Below are positions 2,750-34,897 of a stretch of 48,126 nucleotides of DNA, in pieces (within the stretch, counting starts at the first letter, position 1; each line of letters starts with the position of its first letter). The position numbers were made by a program, and so were the translations under genes. The notes below the pieces were generated by a model. That model was not told the origin of the DNA. It saw nothing but the letters and a program-made list of their open reading frames with translations, and did no database searches. Source of the stretch: a virus; the IMG/VR virus record IMGVR_UViG_3300036829_000162, positions 1-48,126 of that record. One strand, given 5' to 3'.

Positions 2750-3688
2750 ATGGCTGCTGCCGATTCTAACGCCGCATTGCGCTATTTGAGCCTGCTCGAC
2801 GAAGCTTTGCTGGCCAAAAACACCCGGCTGGGGTACCAGGCCGATTGGCGGCACTTCGAGCGCTTCTGCACCGCTCAGGGTTTCCCCTCGCTCCCCGCCT
2901 CGACGGACACCGTTGCTCTCTTCATCGCTACCCGTTTGCAGAGCGGCCGGAAGGTCTCGACCGTCACCCGGAACGTGGCGGCCATCGCCTACCAGCACCG
3001 CGAACGCGGGATGGAAAGCCCCTCGACCGAGCGCATCCGCGAAATCCTCCGGGGCGCCAGGCGTCTGAAGGGAGAGCCGGCGCGCCAGGCGAAGCCGCTC
3101 TCGATCGAACACCTGCGCGAAATGGCGGAGTTCGCCGTACGCGAGGACACGGCCTTCGCCTACCGCAACCGCGCCATCATCGTGGTGGGCTTCGCCTCCG
3201 GCCTGCGGACGGCGAGCCTCGCGCAGCTCCAGCTGGGCGATGTGGAGTTCACTGAGAAGGGCGCCGTCTTGCACGTCCGCCGCTCGAAGGGCGATCAGGA
3301 GGGCCGGGGGCTGCTGATAGGTCTCCCCCCAGGCGAGAAGCCGGCTACCTGCCCGGTAAACGCGCTCAAAGGCTGGATTGAGCGGCGAGGCCGGTTCCCC
3401 GGGCCGCTGTTCATTCGCTTTGACCCGGGCTTCGGGAAAGAGCGCGCGCTTGAGCCCGAGCGCATCGGTCAAATCGTTCAGGAGCTGGCGGTGGCGGTGG
3501 GCTTGCGCAAGACCGAATACTCGGGGCATTCGCTGCGCGCCGGCTTCGTGACGGCGGCCGGCGAGGCGCGGTGTTCTGAACTCGCGATCGCGGCCGTGAC
3601 CGGGCATCGCGATATGGCCACGCTGCGCAAGTACTTCCGGAAGGTCGATCTGTGGCGGGGAAACCCCGCAGGGATGATCGGACTCTGA
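2750..3688 (+). CDS. int: tyrosine recombinase / phage integrase
   Basis: This protein (312 residues) is a tyrosine site-specific recombinase that would integrate and excise the phage genome at att sites. An N-terminal SAM-like core-binding domain spans about residues 8-100. The catalytic domain shows the full set: R153 in GLRTASL, K180 in RRSKGD, H260 and R263 in HSLRAGF, H286 in TGHRDMA, and the nucleophile Y295 in LRKYFRK. I start at the ATG because AAGGTG lies 8 bases before it; an in-frame GTG nine bases upstream is possible. The closest-looking relatives are Xer/phage integrases with GHSLRAGF. It is divergent from the early operon and precedes the regulator, the usual place for an integrase. 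Confidence 0.93.
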   Translation: MAAADSNAALRYLSLLDEALLAKNTRLGYQADWRHFERFCTAQGFPSLPASTDTVALFIATRLQSGRKVSTVTRNVAAIAYQHRERGMESPSTERIREILRGARRLKGEPARQAKPLSIEHLREMAEFAVREDTAFAYRNRAIIVVGFASGLRTASLAQLQLGDVEFTEKGAVLHVRRSKGDQEGRGLLIGLPPGEKPATCPVNALKGWIERRGRFPGPLFIRFDPGFGKERALEPERIGQIVQELAVAVGLRKTEYSGHSLRAGFVTAAGEARCSELAIAAVTGHRDMATLRKYFRKVDLWRGNPAGMIGL

Positions 3689-15606: not shown

Positions 15607-16206
15607 ATGGCAAACAAGAAAGCAACACGCGAAAAGATCAGTTCCACCGGTTTCGGAGAGAGCAAGCCCTTCGTAGCTCCGGAAGGGACGTTCAGCGAAA
15701 ATCCGGTTCTCAATCTGCACGTCGGCGGCGTGCTGGTGCGAGACCTTCCGATCGAGATGCAAGGCCGGATCGTCTACGCCCAGACCGACGAAGGCTTCGC
15801 CGAAAACAATGAGGGCAAGGTCGAGGGAGCGGCCCGCGTGATCAGCGACGGCTTCAACAAAGCGCTAGAGCAGCGGAAAGACGACGTGCTCGAACGCGAC
15901 ATGGAGAGCTACGAAGCCCGCGACCCGTTGAAGGAAGTTCACGATCAATACATTCAGCCTGGCATGCGCGGAAAGTTTTTGTCGCCGCGCAAGGTTAAGG
16001 AAAACGGCGGCACTGGCGATTACGAAATTGTGAAGGATGCAAAACAGAATCCTGTGAGCGTCCATGGAATGGTTTTAGGTCAGATGCCTGAGCGGAAAGC
16101 CAGGGCACGTAACAAGCACTACCAGGAGCGCAGCAATCGCCTGCTCACCGAAATGACGGAGAGATACAAGGCGGAAGGCGGCGCTACGGCAGTCGCTGAC
16201 CAGTAG
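15607..16206 (+). CDS. hypothetical head-region protein
   Basis: This 199-residue protein (MANKKATREKISSTGFGESK and onward) has a beta-type middle (NLHVGGVLVRDLPIEMQG) and a charged helical C-terminal half (RARNKHYQERSNRLLTEMTE). GAGAGG lies about 9 bases before the start. It immediately precedes the structured RNA element. No family is recognised; a minor head protein is possible. Confidence 0.55.
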   Translation: MANKKATREKISSTGFGESKPFVAPEGTFSENPVLNLHVGGVLVRDLPIEMQGRIVYAQTDEGFAENNEGKVEGAARVISDGFNKALEQRKDDVLERDMESYEARDPLKEVHDQYIQPGMRGKFLSPRKVKENGGTGDYEIVKDAKQNPVSVHGMVLGQMPERKARARNKHYQERSNRLLTEMTERYKAEGGATAVADQ

Positions 16207-16208
16207 GG

Positions 16209-16341
16209 CTTTGTGAGCGGCGAAAGGGTGCGATTCCCATAGGCCTGCAAAGAGTCTCCGCACGTCGGAGACTCGCTCACAAGGGTTTTGATGCGAAGCA
16301 GGCGCGTGCATTTCAGTTCCTGAAAAGGACACCCGCACGCG
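16209..16341 (+). ncRNA. pseudoknotted structured RNA element upstream of capsid genes
   Basis: Stem P1 pairs 16209-16218 with 16275-16284 (10 bp, one G-U). Inside it are a small hairpin GGG/CCC (16226-16228/16236-16238) with a 7-base loop UGCGAUU like a T-loop, and a perfect 9-bp hairpin P3 (16252-16260/16266-16274, loop CACGU) stacked directly on P1. GCCUGC (16243-16248) can pair with GCAGGC (16298-16303) downstream of P1, giving an H-type pseudoknot. Next come a stem GCGUGC/GCACGC (16304-16309/16335-16340) enclosing a 6-bp hairpin (16311-16316/16320-16325). It lies between a stop and the next gene. Function unknown: cis-regulator, ribozyme or processed RNA. Confidence 0.6.
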
Positions 16342-16408
16342 GCTCGACCTCGGCGACCAGGTCTTCGCTCTCAACGAGGGAACGAAATTCTCTTTTTGGA
16401 GTGGAGCA

Positions 16409-16927
16409 ATGGCAAACGTAAATGCCGTCCACGGACTTCGACCGCTGATGCGCTCGATTGTCGGTGGTGCAGGCGCAGCCCTGATCGGCGCGCACAAGCT
16501 CGCAGGCGACGGCACTGCACTATACATCTACGACGTCGTAAAGAAAGCTGGATCCGGCACCAAGAACACGATCTGCGTCACCGCAGGTACGGCGGCCGCG
16601 GCAGCTCTCGGCGTCAACCTGATCTTTGGCAAGGCTTCAACCGCCACAGATCACCTCGTCATTCCCGGCCTTTTCCAGGCCTTCGAGACGCAGATCGACA
16701 CGATCGCGGCCGCGGACCTGGACAAGAACTGCGCTCTCGTCGCGGGCGCCGGCAATGCGAACACTCTGGTTTCTGGTCACAGCGCCAACGGGGTAGCCAC
16801 CACCAACACCCTCGACTTCCACGTCCTGGGCTTGTGGGCCTCCTCCGATAACGCAGTCGGCGCCTTTGCGCGCATCGAAGTGACCTTTAACAACCAACAG
16901 TACAACGACCAAAAGGTGGGGGTGTAG
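16409..16927 (+). CDS. putative head decoration / structural protein
   Basis: This 172-residue protein starts MANVNAVHGLRPLMR, a beginning shared by a class of small phage head or surface proteins next to capsid genes. The rest is beta-rich with many A, T and G (LGVNLIFGKASTATDHLVI, ALVAGAGNANTLVSGHSANG). A good site (GGAGTGGAG) precedes its ATG. The frame is open upstream to a TGA at 16287, but there is no usable start there. It directly precedes the major capsid gene. Confidence 0.6.
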   Translation: MANVNAVHGLRPLMRSIVGGAGAALIGAHKLAGDGTALYIYDVVKKAGSGTKNTICVTAGTAAAAALGVNLIFGKASTATDHLVIPGLFQAFETQIDTIAAADLDKNCALVAGAGNANTLVSGHSANGVATTNTLDFHVLGLWASSDNAVGAFARIEVTFNNQQYNDQKVGV

Positions 16928-16929
16928 CC

Positions 16930-17856
16930 GTGCAGATCAGAGGACAATTTTCAGACTTCTTCTTCGAAACGATGCTCCCCGCCTTGAATGCCAAAATCTG
17001 GCAGAACTTCAAGGCCAAGCCCAGCCTGCTCTCGAAGCTGCTGCGTGTTGAAACCTCCGGCCGGTCGATCGAGCAATTCGCGACGATGGCCGGCGTTGGC
17101 CTCCCGGGCCTGGTGCAGGAAGGTGCCGACACCGGTACCGACACCATGGTGCAGGGATACAGCAAGACCTTCAAGCCGGCGAAATACGGCTTGGGCATTG
17201 CTGCTTCTCAGGAACTGGTCGAGGACGACAAGTTTGGCGTGATCTCGCGCCGCACGGTCGCTCTTTCGAATTCCATCCGGCAGGCGCGGGAAATCCAGGC
17301 AGCTTCGGTCTATAACAACGGGTTTGACGGAACCAACTTCGCCATCCCCGATGGACAGGCGCTCTTTGCGGCCTCGCATCCCCTGGTGAAGTCGGGCGGT
17401 ACGCAGAATAACCTGCTCTCCGTCGCGGCCGATCTGGACGTGGCGAGCCTGGAGCTGGCGCTGACCGACTGGGAGCTGACCAAGACCAACGAAGGCTTCC
17501 TGCAGATGTATCCCACGCCGCGGCTCCTGGTCGCGAGCGCGAACCGCTGGAACGTGGCCGAGATTCTAAAGTCTCAGCAGCGCTCCGACACCGCCAACAA
17601 CGCGACCAACGCGTTCAAGTACACGGAGACCGGCGGGAACATCGACTCCGTCGTTTGGCCCTATTTGACCGATCCCGATGCTTGGTTCCTCGTCGGACCT
17701 CCCGAAGAGACCGAAATCGTATGGGTCGATCGGAAGGCGCCGTACACGAAGTCCGATTACACCGAGAAATCGGAGACCGGCTTCATCTACATGCGCTATC
17801 GCGCCGATTTCGGTGCGTATGGCTGGCGTGCGGTCTACGGCACCCCGGGCGCCTAG
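16930..17856 (+). CDS. major capsid protein (Mu gpT-like)
   Basis: This 308-residue protein resembles the Mu gpT/Mu-like major head subunit family (Mu gpT is about 305 residues). Shared features are the N-terminal helix, the stretch with YSKTFKPAKYGLGIAASQEL, the loop with NNGFDGTNFAIPDGQALFA and HPLV, the helix segment with PTPRLLVASANRWNVAEIL, and the acidic end (YGAYGWRAVYG-like). This family forms the HK97-fold shell. The start is GTG, three bases after the previous stop with a weak site. The protein is the likely product of highest abundance in the operon. Confidence 0.8.
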   Translation: MQIRGQFSDFFFETMLPALNAKIWQNFKAKPSLLSKLLRVETSGRSIEQFATMAGVGLPGLVQEGADTGTDTMVQGYSKTFKPAKYGLGIAASQELVEDDKFGVISRRTVALSNSIRQAREIQAASVYNNGFDGTNFAIPDGQALFAASHPLVKSGGTQNNLLSVAADLDVASLELALTDWELTKTNEGFLQMYPTPRLLVASANRWNVAEILKSQQRSDTANNATNAFKYTETGGNIDSVVWPYLTDPDAWFLVGPPEETEIVWVDRKAPYTKSDYTEKSETGFIYMRYRADFGAYGWRAVYGTPGA

Positions 17857-23750: not shown

Positions 23751-26684
23751 ATGCGAAGACTGCCTTTTCTTTTTGCGCTCATCGCTCAGGCTGTCTGGGC
23801 GGACAGCACCTCTCTGGTGTTGAACTCCGGATCGTTCGCCACCATGACCATTCCCAGCGTGGCGGCATTCTCGGCTGAGGGCAACTACAACATCTCTTTC
23901 CGGATCCACACTATTACGTTTCCCGGCTCGCAAACCAACATCGGCACGATCGGCCGCACGCGCTTTTTTCTGGCGCCGGGAAACCTGCTCATTGGCGTGA
24001 ACGACGGCGACAGCCAAAGCAGTCGCGGCAACTCCGTAACCGTCGACCTGACTTCGCATCCCGACGTGATTGTGCGCGCGCAGCGCTTCGGAACGATCTT
24101 TCCGGTCCAGGACGGCTCGACGGGCTCGCAATGGCTCGAAGTCCAGGACGTGTTCACCGGCGCCATCCTCACCGAGGCCTGCGCGGTGAATATCGCGACC
24201 GCTTGCCCGGTCGATACCGCGGCGAACGCCAATGTCGTCGGCTCGGGCGGCGGCCTGGGCGCCTCGGGCGCCTCCTTCTCACTCGGCTGGCTGAAATGGT
24301 CCACCGTGACGGTGAAGCCGGGCAGCCCGATGCCCGACGAATCGACGCCGGCCGATCTGGGCGACTGGCATTTCAATAACTCACTTACCAATGCCGGCAC
24401 CGCGGGCTATGCGCTCACCCTGACCGAGACCTCCCCGACTTACGGCGCAACGCCGGCACGCAATCCCATCGTGCAGCTGACGCGGCAATATCTGCATGCC
24501 GGCATTCCGCAAGTGTTGACCTCGGCCGCCTCGGCGCTCGATGGCGGGTCGACGCTCGCGTATGCCTGGACGCAGATTTCGGGGCCAACGACCGTCACCT
24601 GGACCGGCGCGGCGACCGCGACGCCGACGGTTTCCAATACCGTCTTCGGCTCCTACACCTTTCAATTGATTTGCACCGATAGCTCCCTCAATCAAACTCA
24701 GCGAGTGATCGAGGACGGTTTCGTCTTCACTGACGCCAACGACGTCGTGATTACGGGCAATGCGCAGGTCGATGCCGTCCTCGGCCCGCAGAAACGATTC
24801 AATAGCGGCCCTTGGGACTGGGGCGACGATCGCCAGGCGGCCGAGTCCGCGCTGCAGATCGCCAACAACACATCGGCGGCATACGGCTACATCGGCGGCG
24901 GCTTTGGCACCTCACCCTGGAACGTCCAGGCGCCCGGCACGATCAGCGTCACCAATCACAGCGCCACGGTGACCGGCGACGCGAGCACGCGCTTTAATAG
25001 CGTCTCGGGCTGCCCGCCCTGGATCGCGATCTGGTATCCGGACTCTAGCCTGCCGGCGGGACACGGCAATCGCATCATGCCGGTCTTGAGCTGTGCGTCG
25101 GATTCCAGCCTCACGCTCGACACCGTGACGGGCAGCAGCAAAGGACCCTGGAACGATCAGGGCTCGCTCAATTCCATCATCGGATCCGGCCCAACCTATT
25201 CCGGCTGGCATTACGCTTTCATCGACTCCACCACGCTCGGAAACCTGATCGCGAACCAGTCGCCCAACGACTTTTACGACAACGTCGTGGCGCTCTATTC
25301 GCTTTACTACCGCTCGGGCATCGTTGAATATCTCTCGGCCGCGCGCAGCGCTGCCGATGGCCACTGGATTTTCGCCCTCGATTCCGGTCGCAATTTCTAC
25401 TTCGGCGAGTCGTTTGGCGGCTTCCCGCGCAATCGCGCCGTTTTGGGCATGTGGATACGCGCCTTGGATGGACGGCCGGATATGTACCCCGGCCTGGAGC
25501 TGATCGCGGCTTACGGCCATGCGGCGCACCAGAGCACCTATCCGTGGACGCTCGACTGGGGCCGGTATGGCGATCAACGCGAAACCTCTTATTCCTTGGG
25601 CGAGCAGACATACTGCGCGCTGCTCGATCCGACGGCGGCCAACGCGGCAACCTGCCGCGGCTATATCTCGGACATGATGACGAACGGGATCACGCCGCAG
25701 GCCTCCAAAAACTTCTACGTCGCCTATTTCGGAAATATGTTCGGCGGCAACTCAGGCACCGCGTACGCGAGCTGGGTTTCAGGCGGCGGCTCGGTCGCGC
25801 TGCAGCATGGATCCTCGACCGTTACCCTCTCCGGAAACGTCTGGAGCTCGGGCATGTTCGTGGTAGCGCTGAACGACGGCAACCCCTATCCAAACGTAAT
25901 GGCTTTCCTGCCGGCGACGTCGACGCCTGCATCGAACGCCGATTTCTTCGCCGGCGCCTATTGCCCGGCGTACGTCGACACTACCCACGTAACGCTCAAG
26001 GACTGCGCCAGCGGCGCTACCGTGCCCTGGCAGGGCAACGACTGCGGCAGCTGTGGATGGGCGCTCGGCCCTCCCGGCTCGCTCGGCCGCCAAGTGGGCT
26101 TTGGCGCGCAACCCTTCATGCTCGGGATGTTCGGCACGGTGATGAACTGGGTGGCTCAGGCCATGGCCTGCACCGCGCCCGGCGTTCCCTCTGGATGCGA
26201 CAACACCGTCGCGGCCAACGCGCGCAAGCATCACGTCCAGGTTGCCAACTGGATGAAAAACACAGCCTACAACGCCTCCTACAAGGCCGTTTGGTATGCC
26301 GCGGGCTTCGTCAACTGTCCAGCGGATACCATCGGGTGCGCGGACGCCAAGACGGCCGCCGAGGCGCGGCTCGACAACGCCGAATCCATGCGCGCGGTGA
26401 TGGTTTCCTACGCCTACAACGGCGACCCGGCGCTGCAGGCCTTCGGCGATATTCTCTTTAACGCCATGTGGGCAAAACCCGGATGGACGGCACCCGTCGG
26501 CTTCACTGGCGACGCGATTTACCTTACCGGATATAACGACGTTTACGGGTTCTTTGTGACGGGCGCGATTCCGCTTCCCAAGTATTTCGGGATCCTGTTT
26601 GGAATCGGAGGAAACGCCAGTTGGCCCGCCATCCGGCTGACAAACCTCGGCCACTCGCGAGTGGGCGCGTTCACCGGCCGCTAG
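23751..26684 (+). CDS. large secreted PKD / (alpha/alpha)-barrel-like putative depolymerase
   Basis: This 977-residue protein has a Sec-like start (MRRLPFLFALIAQAVWA), an N-terminal beta domain, a PKD-like domain around residues 260-330 (YAWTQISGPTTVTW, TYTFQLICTDS-like) and a long helical, W/Y-rich region after residue 350 (DWGDDRQAAESALQIANN, YYRSGIVEYLSAARSAADGH) that reads like an (alpha/alpha) toroid of polysaccharide-active enzymes. Two inserted beta units (near 24937-25155 and 25789-26020) recur in other tail genes. No catalytic residues can be assigned. A polysaccharide depolymerase or adhesin is inferred. Confidence 0.5.
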   Translation: MRRLPFLFALIAQAVWADSTSLVLNSGSFATMTIPSVAAFSAEGNYNISFRIHTITFPGSQTNIGTIGRTRFFLAPGNLLIGVNDGDSQSSRGNSVTVDLTSHPDVIVRAQRFGTIFPVQDGSTGSQWLEVQDVFTGAILTEACAVNIATACPVDTAANANVVGSGGGLGASGASFSLGWLKWSTVTVKPGSPMPDESTPADLGDWHFNNSLTNAGTAGYALTLTETSPTYGATPARNPIVQLTRQYLHAGIPQVLTSAASALDGGSTLAYAWTQISGPTTVTWTGAATATPTVSNTVFGSYTFQLICTDSSLNQTQRVIEDGFVFTDANDVVITGNAQVDAVLGPQKRFNSGPWDWGDDRQAAESALQIANNTSAAYGYIGGGFGTSPWNVQAPGTISVTNHSATVTGDASTRFNSVSGCPPWIAIWYPDSSLPAGHGNRIMPVLSCASDSSLTLDTVTGSSKGPWNDQGSLNSIIGSGPTYSGWHYAFIDSTTLGNLIANQSPNDFYDNVVALYSLYYRSGIVEYLSAARSAADGHWIFALDSGRNFYFGESFGGFPRNRAVLGMWIRALDGRPDMYPGLELIAAYGHAAHQSTYPWTLDWGRYGDQRETSYSLGEQTYCALLDPTAANAATCRGYISDMMTNGITPQASKNFYVAYFGNMFGGNSGTAYASWVSGGGSVALQHGSSTVTLSGNVWSSGMFVVALNDGNPYPNVMAFLPATSTPASNADFFAGAYCPAYVDTTHVTLKDCASGATVPWQGNDCGSCGWALGPPGSLGRQVGFGAQPFMLGMFGTVMNWVAQAMACTAPGVPSGCDNTVAANARKHHVQVANWMKNTAYNASYKAVWYAAGFVNCPADTIGCADAKTAAEARLDNAESMRAVMVSYAYNGDPALQAFGDILFNAMWAKPGWTAPVGFTGDAIYLTGYNDVYGFFVTGAIPLPKYFGILFGIGGNASWPAIRLTNLGHSRVGAFTGR

Positions 26685-31766: not shown

Positions 31767-32327
31767 GTGGGCTTCCAAAAGGTCAAGCTCTTCAGCAAAA
31801 TCGAAGTGCACGTCGCGGCCAGCGCTCAAGGTACGTTCGCGATTCTGACCGATCTGCCGGGGAACGCCATGGCGCAGCGCACCAGCTTCCCTATCCCGAC
31901 GACCACCAGGCGGCCGGTGATCGCGCGGCTGCCCTTCAACACGCAGGGGCATCTGATCCAGGCGCTCCTGACTCCGAACGCCGCGGGCACCGTGACACTT
32001 TACGGCGCCCGGGTGTGGGCGCGGGAGCTTCCCAATGGCGAATGGGCCTGGTACGACCTGCCGGTGATCGAAACGCCGGCCGAATATGCGTCGGCGCCCT
32101 TGCCGATTCCGTCGACTCCCGAAGAGTGGAGCCCGGCCGAGCTGCCGATTCCGGCCACTCCGGAGGCCTGGAATCCATCGGCGTTACCGATTCCGCCTAC
32201 TCCCGAGGAGTGGTCCGCGGCCGAGCTGCCCATCCCTCCCACGCCCGAGGCCTGGGGAACCGCGGAACTTCCGCTCAAACCCACACCCGTGGTACCCGGC
32301 TGGAGTGACCTCGAGGTCGACAAGTGA
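31767..32327 (+). CDS. tail protein with hub C-terminal domain and proline repeat tail
   Basis: This 186-residue protein has the same ~110-residue domain (FAILTDLPGNAMAQR, VWARELPNGEWAWYDLPV) and then a repeat tract of a 14-residue unit, LPIPxTPEEWxxAE-like, in about four and a half copies, ending in GWSDLEVDK. The repeats would form an extended proline-rich stalk. The start is GTG immediately after the preceding stop. Confidence 0.6.
   Translation: MGFQKVKLFSKIEVHVAASAQGTFAILTDLPGNAMAQRTSFPIPTTTRRPVIARLPFNTQGHLIQALLTPNAAGTVTLYGARVWARELPNGEWAWYDLPVIETPAEYASAPLPIPSTPEEWSPAELPIPATPEAWNPSALPIPPTPEEWSAAELPIPPTPEAWGTAELPLKPTPVVPGWSDLEVDK
32091..32290 (+). repeat. tandem 42-bp-type coding repeat (14 residues)
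   Basis: The 3' half of this gene encodes imperfect 14-residue units with the core LPIP-x-TPE-(E/A)-W. Copies differ in sequence but keep the spacing, giving a 42-bp period. Such proline/tryptophan repeats usually form extended spacers, and copy number may vary between strains. Confidence 0.6.
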
Positions 32328-34897
32328 TCAAAGACATTCCTCCGATTCCCGGAGTCGTGCCTCAGCTCATCACCTCGGTCAACGAACGGCTACGGCAGAT
32401 TCGCCTGCTGACGAGCAGCTCGTCGCCGGCGCCTGGCGGCAGCGGATCGAAGACACCCGTACCCACGGGAACACCGGCGCCCCCGGCCGTGCTGACGATT
32501 ACCTTCTCTCCCTCGAGCGGCCAGTTGGGCGTTCCCTACTCGGGCTCGGTTTCGGCCGCCGGCGGAACGGCGCCTTACACGTACAGCATTACGGTCGGAG
32601 GCCTGCCCTTTGGTTTGACCCTGGACCCGGCCTCTGGCCAGATCTCGGGCACGCCTCTCGAGACCGGGCACTTTGTCTTCACCGCCAACGCCAAGGACGC
32701 CGACGGCAACCAGGTCAACGACAGCTTCACCATCACGATCACGCCGGCCAGTGCGCAGTTGGGCACCATCACCACGGTAACGGCGGCGCTCGCCGGCGGG
32801 GCGCGCTATCTGCTCCCCGATCAGAGCACGCACGATATCATCACGATCACCCCGCATTTTTCGGGCGGCGTGGGCACACAGAACGTAGGGGTTTGGCTGT
32901 TCTTCAGGCGTTCGACGGGCACCGCGGCGGCCTGGTATTTCCAGGGAAACTATCCCTGCCAGATTGGCGGCTCGATCAACCTCGACGAGCTCATCGTCGA
33001 TGGCTCCGCGGTAACGGCGCAGATCGCCGTCCAGGCCGGCGTCTTCCAGGGCGACTCGGTAACGGCGCTCGCGGGCCCGCCGGCGGCCGCGGTGAAATCG
33101 GGCACCTTCACGCTCAAGCTCGATCCCCCGATCGCCGGCGGCGCCACCGCTACCATTACCAACGCGGCCGGTTCGGCTCCCACGCAGGCCAACATCTACA
33201 TGGGGCTGAACTCGCTCGGCAACCCCTATGCCGAAGTGATCATCAGCGTGAACACGCCCGGCGGCATCGATCCGAACTGCTGGTATTACCAGGCCTGGGT
33301 GGAGTGGGTCGATTCGGGCGGCTCTCCCATCAACCCCGGCGGCGTGAACAATACGAGCGGATGGAACCCCGGCGTCCGTTTTGTCAACGACGGAAAGATC
33401 CAGCAATGGACGCTGCTGATCAACTACCCGGCCGCCGGCGTAGACGGATACCTGCGGATTGAATTGTTCGGCTTGAACCGTTCCGCCACGGCTTCGGTTG
33501 CGCCCTACACCGGCGACACCAACGTCACTTTACAGACGGCCTGGACTGGCTCGGCGAATCACTTTGACCTGCATGTGGGCGGAACGCCAGGCAGCGTCAC
33601 CACGAACCCCACCAGCCCCAAGAGCAACATCGGCCTGTCGGTTGCGTTCGATGCTTCGTTCACGTTTTTGAATCAGATCTTCGGCGGGCGCTTCATCCCG
33701 ACGAGTTACGTTTCGCCGGCGCCGGCTCTCGCCTGGGGCTTTGCCGGAAATACGGGCGCCAACATCTTCGCGCAAAACGCCGATGGACCCTCAACGACCA
33801 ACTCGCTAAAACTCATCAGCGACCACTCGTCGGTGCCGACGGTGTTTCAGCGCATTCCGGTCACGCCCAACACGCCCTTTAATGTCTCGAACTCGATCAA
33901 ATCGAGCGCCGGCGCAACTACGTTTGTGTGCAGCTTTCAGTGGCAGGATTCGAGCTTTGCGAACATCGGCTCGGCCACTTCGATTACGCTCACCGGACCT
34001 TTTGCCTCCTGGGGCAACGCCTACCTGGGAACCTGGCCTTCTCCCTCGAACGCCGCTTATATGTCGGTGCAGTTCGCGCTGCCGGCATCGAATCCGAACG
34101 CGGAATGGTGGGAAGTGGGCGACGTGCTGGTGCAGGCCGTCGTCGCGCAGCAAAGCAACTCCCAGCTCACGACCACGGCTCCGGAGATCGTCAACGGCGG
34201 CGGCATCCCCTCGGGCTATTCGGCGGCAGTCGCCGAATCGACGACGACCACCGCGCAATCGGCGGCCGGCCTGAACTCGTATCACATCGACGCGGCCGAC
34301 GGCTCCTACGCCGAGATGTTCAGCAGCGCGTCGTCGAACACCGGTTACGGCTGTAAGCGCACCGATAGCGGCGATGAGACCTTCGTTGCACCGGGACTTA
34401 TCCAGATTGTCGACGGCACATTCGGAAACATCGCCGATCTGACCGCCAACGGCTTTTCGTCCATGTCGACGGGAACGCCCTACAGCGGCTCTCTCGCGCC
34501 ATCGAGCTACCAGGGCGGCGTGGCGATCGGGCCCGGCATCACGCCCGGCGGAGGAGGCGGCCCGGCTTTAACCGTGCAGACCCTGGCCAATCCGTGGCTG
34601 GGCACGCCGACCTCGTCGAGAGCGCTCTCCACCGTCTATCGAAACACGACCGGCAAGACCGTGATCGTGTGTGTCACGGTGCAGTGGGGTGGCACGGCGG
34701 CGATGACCATGCGGGTGAAGGTGGACTCCGTGTCTACCCCGACCACGATCGTGCTCGAAGCCATCAACCCGAGCACGACTCTGGCAATGACCATCCCGGT
34801 GCTGTTTCCGGTGTTGCCGAACTATTACTACGAGATCGACTTTACGGGCGGCGGCTTGAGCTCGTCGTCTTTTCTGATCTGGACGGAGTGGAATTAG
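32324..34897 (+). CDS. tail fibre with He-PIG Ig-like domain and conserved tip domain
   Basis: This 857-residue protein begins with a short N-terminal anchor (VPQLITSVNERLRQIRLLT) and a low-complexity linker. A putative Ig-like He-PIG domain follows (about 60-145: LGVPYSGSVSAAGGTAPYTY, GLPFGLTLDPASGQISGTP). A long beta-rich shaft leads to a C-terminal tip domain (about 750-857) with WLGTPT, NTTGKTVIVCVTVQW, LFPVLPNYYYEID and SSFLIWTEW. This tip resembles the secreted protein two genes downstream. The start is GTG overlapping the previous stop. A host-recognition role is likely. Confidence 0.65.
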   Translation: MIKDIPPIPGVVPQLITSVNERLRQIRLLTSSSSPAPGGSGSKTPVPTGTPAPPAVLTITFSPSSGQLGVPYSGSVSAAGGTAPYTYSITVGGLPFGLTLDPASGQISGTPLETGHFVFTANAKDADGNQVNDSFTITITPASAQLGTITTVTAALAGGARYLLPDQSTHDIITITPHFSGGVGTQNVGVWLFFRRSTGTAAAWYFQGNYPCQIGGSINLDELIVDGSAVTAQIAVQAGVFQGDSVTALAGPPAAAVKSGTFTLKLDPPIAGGATATITNAAGSAPTQANIYMGLNSLGNPYAEVIISVNTPGGIDPNCWYYQAWVEWVDSGGSPINPGGVNNTSGWNPGVRFVNDGKIQQWTLLINYPAAGVDGYLRIELFGLNRSATASVAPYTGDTNVTLQTAWTGSANHFDLHVGGTPGSVTTNPTSPKSNIGLSVAFDASFTFLNQIFGGRFIPTSYVSPAPALAWGFAGNTGANIFAQNADGPSTTNSLKLISDHSSVPTVFQRIPVTPNTPFNVSNSIKSSAGATTFVCSFQWQDSSFANIGSATSITLTGPFASWGNAYLGTWPSPSNAAYMSVQFALPASNPNAEWWEVGDVLVQAVVAQQSNSQLTTTAPEIVNGGGIPSGYSAAVAESTTTTAQSAAGLNSYHIDAADGSYAEMFSSASSNTGYGCKRTDSGDETFVAPGLIQIVDGTFGNIADLTANGFSSMSTGTPYSGSLAPSSYQGGVAIGPGITPGGGGGPALTVQTLANPWLGTPTSSRALSTVYRNTTGKTVIVCVTVQWGGTAAMTMRVKVDSVSTPTTIVLEAINPSTTLAMTIPVLFPVLPNYYYEIDFTGGGLSSSSFLIWTEWN

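Follow-up and report, generated by a model that had tools for sequence, protein, structure and literature searches.

A conserved pseudoknot RNA upstream of the capsid genes in phages of soil Acidobacteria, a candidate two-state translational control element

Gene neighborhood of the leader

The window, that is, the whole analyzed stretch of 48,126 nucleotides of the virus record IMGVR_UViG_3300036829_000162, contains an intergenic gap (16207-16408) that separates an upstream 201-aa gene without assigned function from a downstream 172-aa gene. The following features lie at and beyond the 3' end of this gap:

16398..16401, plus strand: Shine-Dalgarno (SD) sequence GGAG of the decoration gene, 11 nt 5' of ATG 16409
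16409..16927, plus strand: predicted capsid decoration (turret/cement-like) gene, 172 aa (AlphaFold2 and Foldseek)
16930..17856, plus strand: major capsid protein gene, Phage_capsid_4 / Mu gpT-like (Pfam PF25209, E 4.7e-18; PF10124, E 3.3e-6)

The AlphaFold2 model of the 172-aa protein (pLDDT 81) gave as its top Foldseek matches the base of the phi29 head-fibre gp8.5, the HFTV1 capsid-interface protein, and the T1 capsid protein, with probabilities of 0.99-1.00 and E-values of only 1.5e-3 to 2e-2. Since these E-values are modest, the structural model identifies the gene product as a likely, rather than a proven, capsid decoration protein. As a lone search query this protein found no relatives; an alignment-based query succeeded where the single sequence had not. 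A nucleotide search against annotated phages yielded no credible match. At 23751-26684 and 32324-34897 the window encodes large tail-region proteins with a PKD domain (PF22352) and a putative Ig domain (He_PIG, PF05345), both typical of adhesion parts.

Protein coding was rejected for the gap itself, as no plus-strand open frame of at least 60 aa was found inside 16207-16408. A scan of 15900-16450 revealed neither an intrinsic terminator (a GC hairpin with a U-tract) nor a plus-strand promoter of the sigma-70-like type scanned; the original prediction, in which no U-tract followed the hairpins of the gap, was correct in this respect.

Structure and conservation of the element

A capsid protein search retrieved 36 viral loci, and the gaps before the decoration gene were compared. 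The first part of the gap varies freely and can be nearly absent or exceed 330 nt; directly 5' of the decoration gene, the shared sequence GCGAAGCAGGCGCG...ACCUC...GUCUUCGC...UGAGG...AGGAG was observed. A covariance model built from 21 sequences detected the element in 32 distinct loci, 11 of them outside the model-building set, and its match in the window (16290-16387, 70 bits) is the sole one in the record. With one locus added later (L200), at least 33 distinct phage loci carry the element. Its components in the window are as follows:

16293..16379, plus strand: conserved aptamer-like domain of ~90 nt, comprising P1, P1b, P2, P3, and the pseudoknot (covariance model and alignment)
16293..16299, plus strand: 5' strand of P1, GCGAAGC, pairing with 16361 and 16363-16368
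16301..16358, plus strand: P1b, GG 16301-16302 with CC 16357-16358 (read from the sequence)
16303..16341, plus strand: P2 (16303-16309/16335-16341) with the inner hairpin P3 (16316-16320/16327-16330), both with double changes
16348..16352, plus strand: 5' strand of the pseudoknot, CCUCG, pairing with 16375-16379
16361..16368, plus strand: 3' strand of P1 (P1'), G(U)CUUCGC, in which the bulged U is invariant; this strand doubles as the 5' arm of the SD hairpin (alignments A3/A5 and folds)
16375..16379, plus strand: 3' strand of the pseudoknot (PK'), CGAGG, with the C/U-rich stretch immediately 5' of the SD as its second partner (alignment and folds)

P1 encloses the P2/P3 hairpin, the pseudoknot has the consensus CCUCR/YGAGG, and two bases of the domain, A16300 and the bulged U16362, are conserved and unpaired. 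Pairs of P1, P1b, P2, P3, and the pseudoknot were counted over 31 distinct aligned sequences. Pairing was observed in 94.6% of the pair cells and in 22-50% when one side was slid; 41 cells carry double changes, compared with 10.0 +/- 2.4 after shuffling (0/500 shuffles as high) and 3-9 in the slid versions. The usual A-U pair of P1 is replaced by U-A in L003 and by G-C in L021. P2 varies freely with compensation, showing double changes in five of its seven pairs, and P3 shows them in two of four. For P1b, 80.6% of cells are paired in alignment A5, where some rows, the window's included, are misaligned by one column.

The pseudoknot has 95.5% of its cells paired, as against 27-44% when its 6-pair version was slid. 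It is nearly invariant and only its last pair compensates (A-U, G-U, or G-C), so its covariation support, carried by one column pair, is real but thin. As judged from the aligned sequences, P1, P2, and P3 are supported by compensatory changes, and we regard both the conservation of this structured RNA and its link to the capsid genes as almost certain.

L015 (about 3165-3340) and likewise L016-L018 carry a second copy of the element's 5' part (GCGAAGCAGGCGCGTCCAGC), placed 167 nt 5' of the full-length one; this looks like an insertion or partial duplication inside the element.

Distribution of the element

Across the 32 aligned loci, the element lies immediately 5' of the decoration gene start, with the major capsid gene next, and GGAG lies close to the start codon in 32/32 leaders. 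Eighteen whole records, among them two MAGs of ~6 Mb, each contain exactly one copy. Two loci found by the model are located on Acidobacteria MAG contigs (59.8 and 87 bits). One of these two contigs (97 kb) also contains a TIGR03435 member, a formate-dehydrogenase-like gene, and a sensor kinase, which points to a prophage in a bacterial chromosome. The element belongs to soil phages infecting Acidobacteria. Among 297 sampled Acidobacteriota genomes there were no copies before host genes, only the known prophage and two chance matches (L121 and L122), which lie inside long coding frames on the opposite strand, one of them clpC-like by sequence.

Several other candidates were discarded. Six pattern matches (L042, L055, L062, L072, L075, and L082) scored 19 bits or less and were attributed to chance, as were 28 of 29 matches to patterns with non-A variants of P1; the single real one (L126, identical to L003) has the matched U-A pair. 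A frameshift or readthrough signal was rejected, as the spacing between the upstream stop codon and the element is variable, at about 5 to 340 nt. The locus L044 / L166 (IMGVR_UViG_3300009678_000016) has the same length as the window (48,126 bases) but represents a related, clearly different virus, with about 66-73% identity to the window where longer stretches align.

The variable upstream module

The 5' part of the gap in the window is occupied by a separate structure:

16209..16284, plus strand: lineage-specific upstream module with a T-loop-like hairpin and a 9-bp hairpin, outside the conserved RNA (z = -3.6; absent from L001 and L004)

This module was the centre of the original prediction, which described one T-loop-containing, pseudoknotted RNA at 16209-16341. 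All stems named in it exist in the sequence at the positions given: the 10-bp outer stem (16209-16218/16275-16284), the 9-bp hairpin (16252-16260/16266-16274), and the T-loop-like hairpin with a GGG/CCC stem and the loop UGCGAUU (16226-16238). The proposed pseudoknot GCCUGC/GCAGGC is real as complementarity of 16243-16248 with 16298-16303; the pairing is not conserved, because relatives keep GCAGGC, a core sequence in nearly all of them, including those without the upstream module, in the absence of any GCCUGC partner. The predicted stability was reproduced for the 133-nt stretch (z = -3.8, 0/200 dinucleotide shuffles equal) and for the module 16209-16284 alone (z = -3.6). Folding energy does not decide its assignment to the sense direction, since the minus strand of the 133-nt stretch folds equally strongly (z = -4.3).

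The slot holding the module is 8 nt long in L001 and 5 nt in L004, the closest relatives, which have no T-loop/9-bp module; it spans 20 nt or less in 9 of 21 relatives having the element, these two included, and the other inserts are mostly dissimilar. BLAST of the module against the fetched loci produced no credible match. ARAGORN called no tRNA or tmRNA in the window or in 24 loci, and relaxed thresholds gave weak calls, alike in many gaps. The exact core of the T-loop hairpin has three matches in viral contigs, one in a predicted tmRNA and the others without clear relation.

Slots of other loci contain features of their own. T-arm-like sequences (GGTTCGATTCC and variants) were observed at L009 671-853, L006 1745-1855, and L124 about 1690-1720, between head genes or directly 5' of another phage gene, and ARAGORN at default settings called no tRNA at them. 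Another module (CAACTCGGGCGACGGCTCGGGAAGGCGG) is common to L003, L009, L010, and L011 in the same slot, and L005 (about 3074-3320) has a small additional open reading frame between the upstream gene and the element.

The interval 16209-16341 therefore cannot be kept as one element: it joins two unrelated things, the lineage-specific module and the 5' half of the conserved element, which extends beyond 16341 to 16379 and then on toward the SD. The anatomy was redrawn, as the T-loop module, the 9-bp hairpin, and the GCCUGC/GCAGGC pairing are not conserved and the conserved covarying RNA lies mostly further 3'. Covariation, the check proposed with the original prediction, failed for the T-loop pseudoknot, which homologs lack, and was borne out for the adjoining element at 16293-16379. 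The broader claim of a structured RNA between head genes, probably cis-regulatory and without a match to a described family, was upheld.

Searches with Rfam 15, including Mu-gpT-DE, riboswitches, and ribozymes, identified no family at the gathering threshold in the window and 12 related loci; at E <= 10 the window gave only a chance match to sX12 (17.9 bits versus a threshold of 106). Mu-gpT-DE RNA is a metagenomic motif named for a neighboring Mu gpT-like capsid gene. Its name marks a downstream element, whereas the present element lies upstream and gave no match to this family (accession RF03012, from PMC7657543) even at E <= 10.

Alternative pairing of the Shine-Dalgarno sequence

The 3' part of the leader is predicted to form a second structure:

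16363..16406, plus strand: SD hairpin pairing CUUCGCUC/GAGUGGAG, CAA/UUG, and GAGGGAA/UUCUCUU (-19.0 kcal/mol, z = -3.8, 0/200 shuffles)

In the pseudoknot-free fold, the SD pairs with P1' and the bases that follow it, and PK' extends the helix just 5' of the SD; both closing 3' strands of the domain have a second partner at the SD site. When the 32 leaders are folded without pseudoknots, their SD is paired with a mean probability of 0.93; the value for 113 other genes on these contigs is 0.59 (Mann-Whitney p = 4e-12, kinship uncorrected). In L020 and L023 the SD is not hidden by P1'. More distant capsid relatives (26-55% identity) lack the element, and their mean SD pairing of 0.59 is like that of ordinary genes. 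Some distant relatives that lack the element (L096, L099, L101, and L196) bury the SD of their decoration-like gene in a simple long-range hairpin, such as GGTCTCC...GGAGACC, which may be a less elaborate version of this control.

A permutation test on 30 leaders compared each leader's own halves (-14.6 kcal/mol) with swapped 3' halves (-13.0 kcal/mol) and gave z = -5.07, with 0/20,000 permutations as good; five control pairings (reversed, complemented, and neighboring pieces) had |z| <= 1.3. The post-SD motif GGAGYGAA, complementary to UUCGCUCC, occurs in 14 of 32 leaders and in 16 of 254 SD contexts overall, leaders counted in. Column covariation of the SD hairpin in a fixed alignment was not significant (78.4% versus 77.6% shuffled, 65/500 shuffles), probably because the helix slides between leaders. 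The complementarity of the leader halves provides good, though not final, support for the SD hairpin.

Proposed mechanism and alternative explanations

From its position, the element would be transcribed as an mRNA leader, and it probably exerts a two-state, cis-acting translational control of the decoration-capsid gene pair. The proposed states are (i) the ON state, in which P1 would close the P2/P3 domain, CCUCR/YGAGG would form beside P1, and the SD would be free; and (ii) the OFF state, in which P1' and the next few bases would pair with the SD and its 3' flank, and PK' with the strand 5' of the SD. Since P1' and PK' are common to both, the two states would be mutually exclusive, and since P1 and the pseudoknot are transcribed complete before the SD, the open state can form first.

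Mean energies before the pseudoknot loop cost are close, at -37.0 kcal/mol for ON and -39.0 kcal/mol for OFF; once complete, the hairpin state equals or exceeds the open one in stability. The leader is likely bistable. For the window leader, OFF is the more stable state by about 8 kcal/mol, not counting the pseudoknot penalty, so that ON would depend on a partner or on kinetic trapping. Both states presumably form in cells, with the pseudoknot state acting as ON and being stabilized by some factor. Candidate stabilizers would be a protein of the phage or host, a small molecule, or earlier transcription and folding, of which a protein would be the most plausible trigger, given that the element occurs with a single phage gene pair. 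The switch would time or tune capsid synthesis during infection. More tentatively, the element may represent a new class of bistable phage RNA that switches virion-shell synthesis on through its pseudoknot and responds to a factor of the phage or host, or to the assembly state, so as to time or balance capsid production.

The strict capsid-gene link and the absence of the element elsewhere would also suit a phage-encoded protein binding a leader that is no true switch, in autogenous control or in mRNA stabilization or processing, with the SD pairing incidental. The T4 gene 32 leader sets the precedent, its pseudoknot being, according to a 2010 review that also mentions the rpsO pseudoknot operator, perhaps the only viral one in translational autoregulation (PMC3014915). 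We consider such a leader rather unlikely here, as it leaves unexplained why P1' and PK' are complementary to the SD region beyond the swapped controls.

By analogy, the T4 gene 32 leader is the best phage precedent for the element: in both, a phage mRNA leader carries a pseudoknot, supported here mostly by invariant pairs, 5' of the start codon, and the encoded protein is abundant. The element differs from it in that (i) no A+U-rich cooperative binding site was noted and the fold is different, (ii) it precedes capsid genes rather than the gene of an ssDNA-binding protein, and (iii) an alternative SD hairpin shares strands with the pseudoknot. Outside phages, alternative hairpin and pseudoknot forms of the E. 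coli rpsO (S15) leader control translation; the pseudoknot is the repressed form there and the proposed open form here, and no sequence or structure relationship to the rpsO leader was found.

In SAM-II and preQ1 riboswitches, a pseudoknot domain lies directly 5' of the SD, with mutually exclusive pairing as the expression platform. The present architecture would suit a metabolite riboswitch: a conserved aptamer-like domain with the conserved unpaired A16300 and bulged U16362 lies in the predicted mRNA leader, and the variable SD hairpin would serve as the expression platform, whose mutual exclusivity is supported by the folding and permutation tests but not by column covariation. However, the ligand-bound SAM-II and preQ1 pseudoknots hide the SD, whereas this one is proposed to free it, and no Rfam riboswitch matches. 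Known riboswitch classes recur upstream of many genes; this element was seen upstream of a single phage gene pair only, and upstream of no host metabolic gene in the 297 sampled Acidobacteriota genomes, which makes a small-molecule aptamer improbable.

Some T4 late genes are timed through an SD that is hidden in read-through transcripts and free in short late ones. A late promoter inside the element would produce the same effect, and the SD hairpin is strongly predicted and capsid genes are late genes; such a device is very improbable, given that the scan of 15900-16450 gave no plus-strand promoter of the sigma-70 type and that the conserved P1/P2/P3/pseudoknot fold would be left unexplained. 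Least credible of all is an RNA with T-loop and pseudoknot at 16209-16341 that would serve as a ribozyme, processing signal, or sRNA: the folding of its module and the T-arm-like sequences in the same slot of L009 and L006 speak for it, but the slot is minimal in the nearest relatives, is otherwise filled mostly with unlike inserts, and GCAGGC is conserved without its partner.

Significance of the element

The element is a previously undescribed RNA family of a general kind, the pseudoknot leader or SD switch, that is already known. No description of such a capsid-gene leader RNA was found in the open-access literature, and neither the Rfam copy nor open-access papers yielded a conserved structured leader RNA on capsid genes. 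Late-gene control in dsDNA phages has mostly been described in terms of promoters and antitermination, and conserved structured leaders of capsid genes are hardly known. Acidobacteria abound in soil, and the annotated collection contains hardly any of their phages. The aligned family, the covariance model, and a testable two-state mechanism make the element directly accessible to probing. If the proposed switch is true, the element would be a natural bistable translation element and would offer a route to study how capsid stoichiometry is set.
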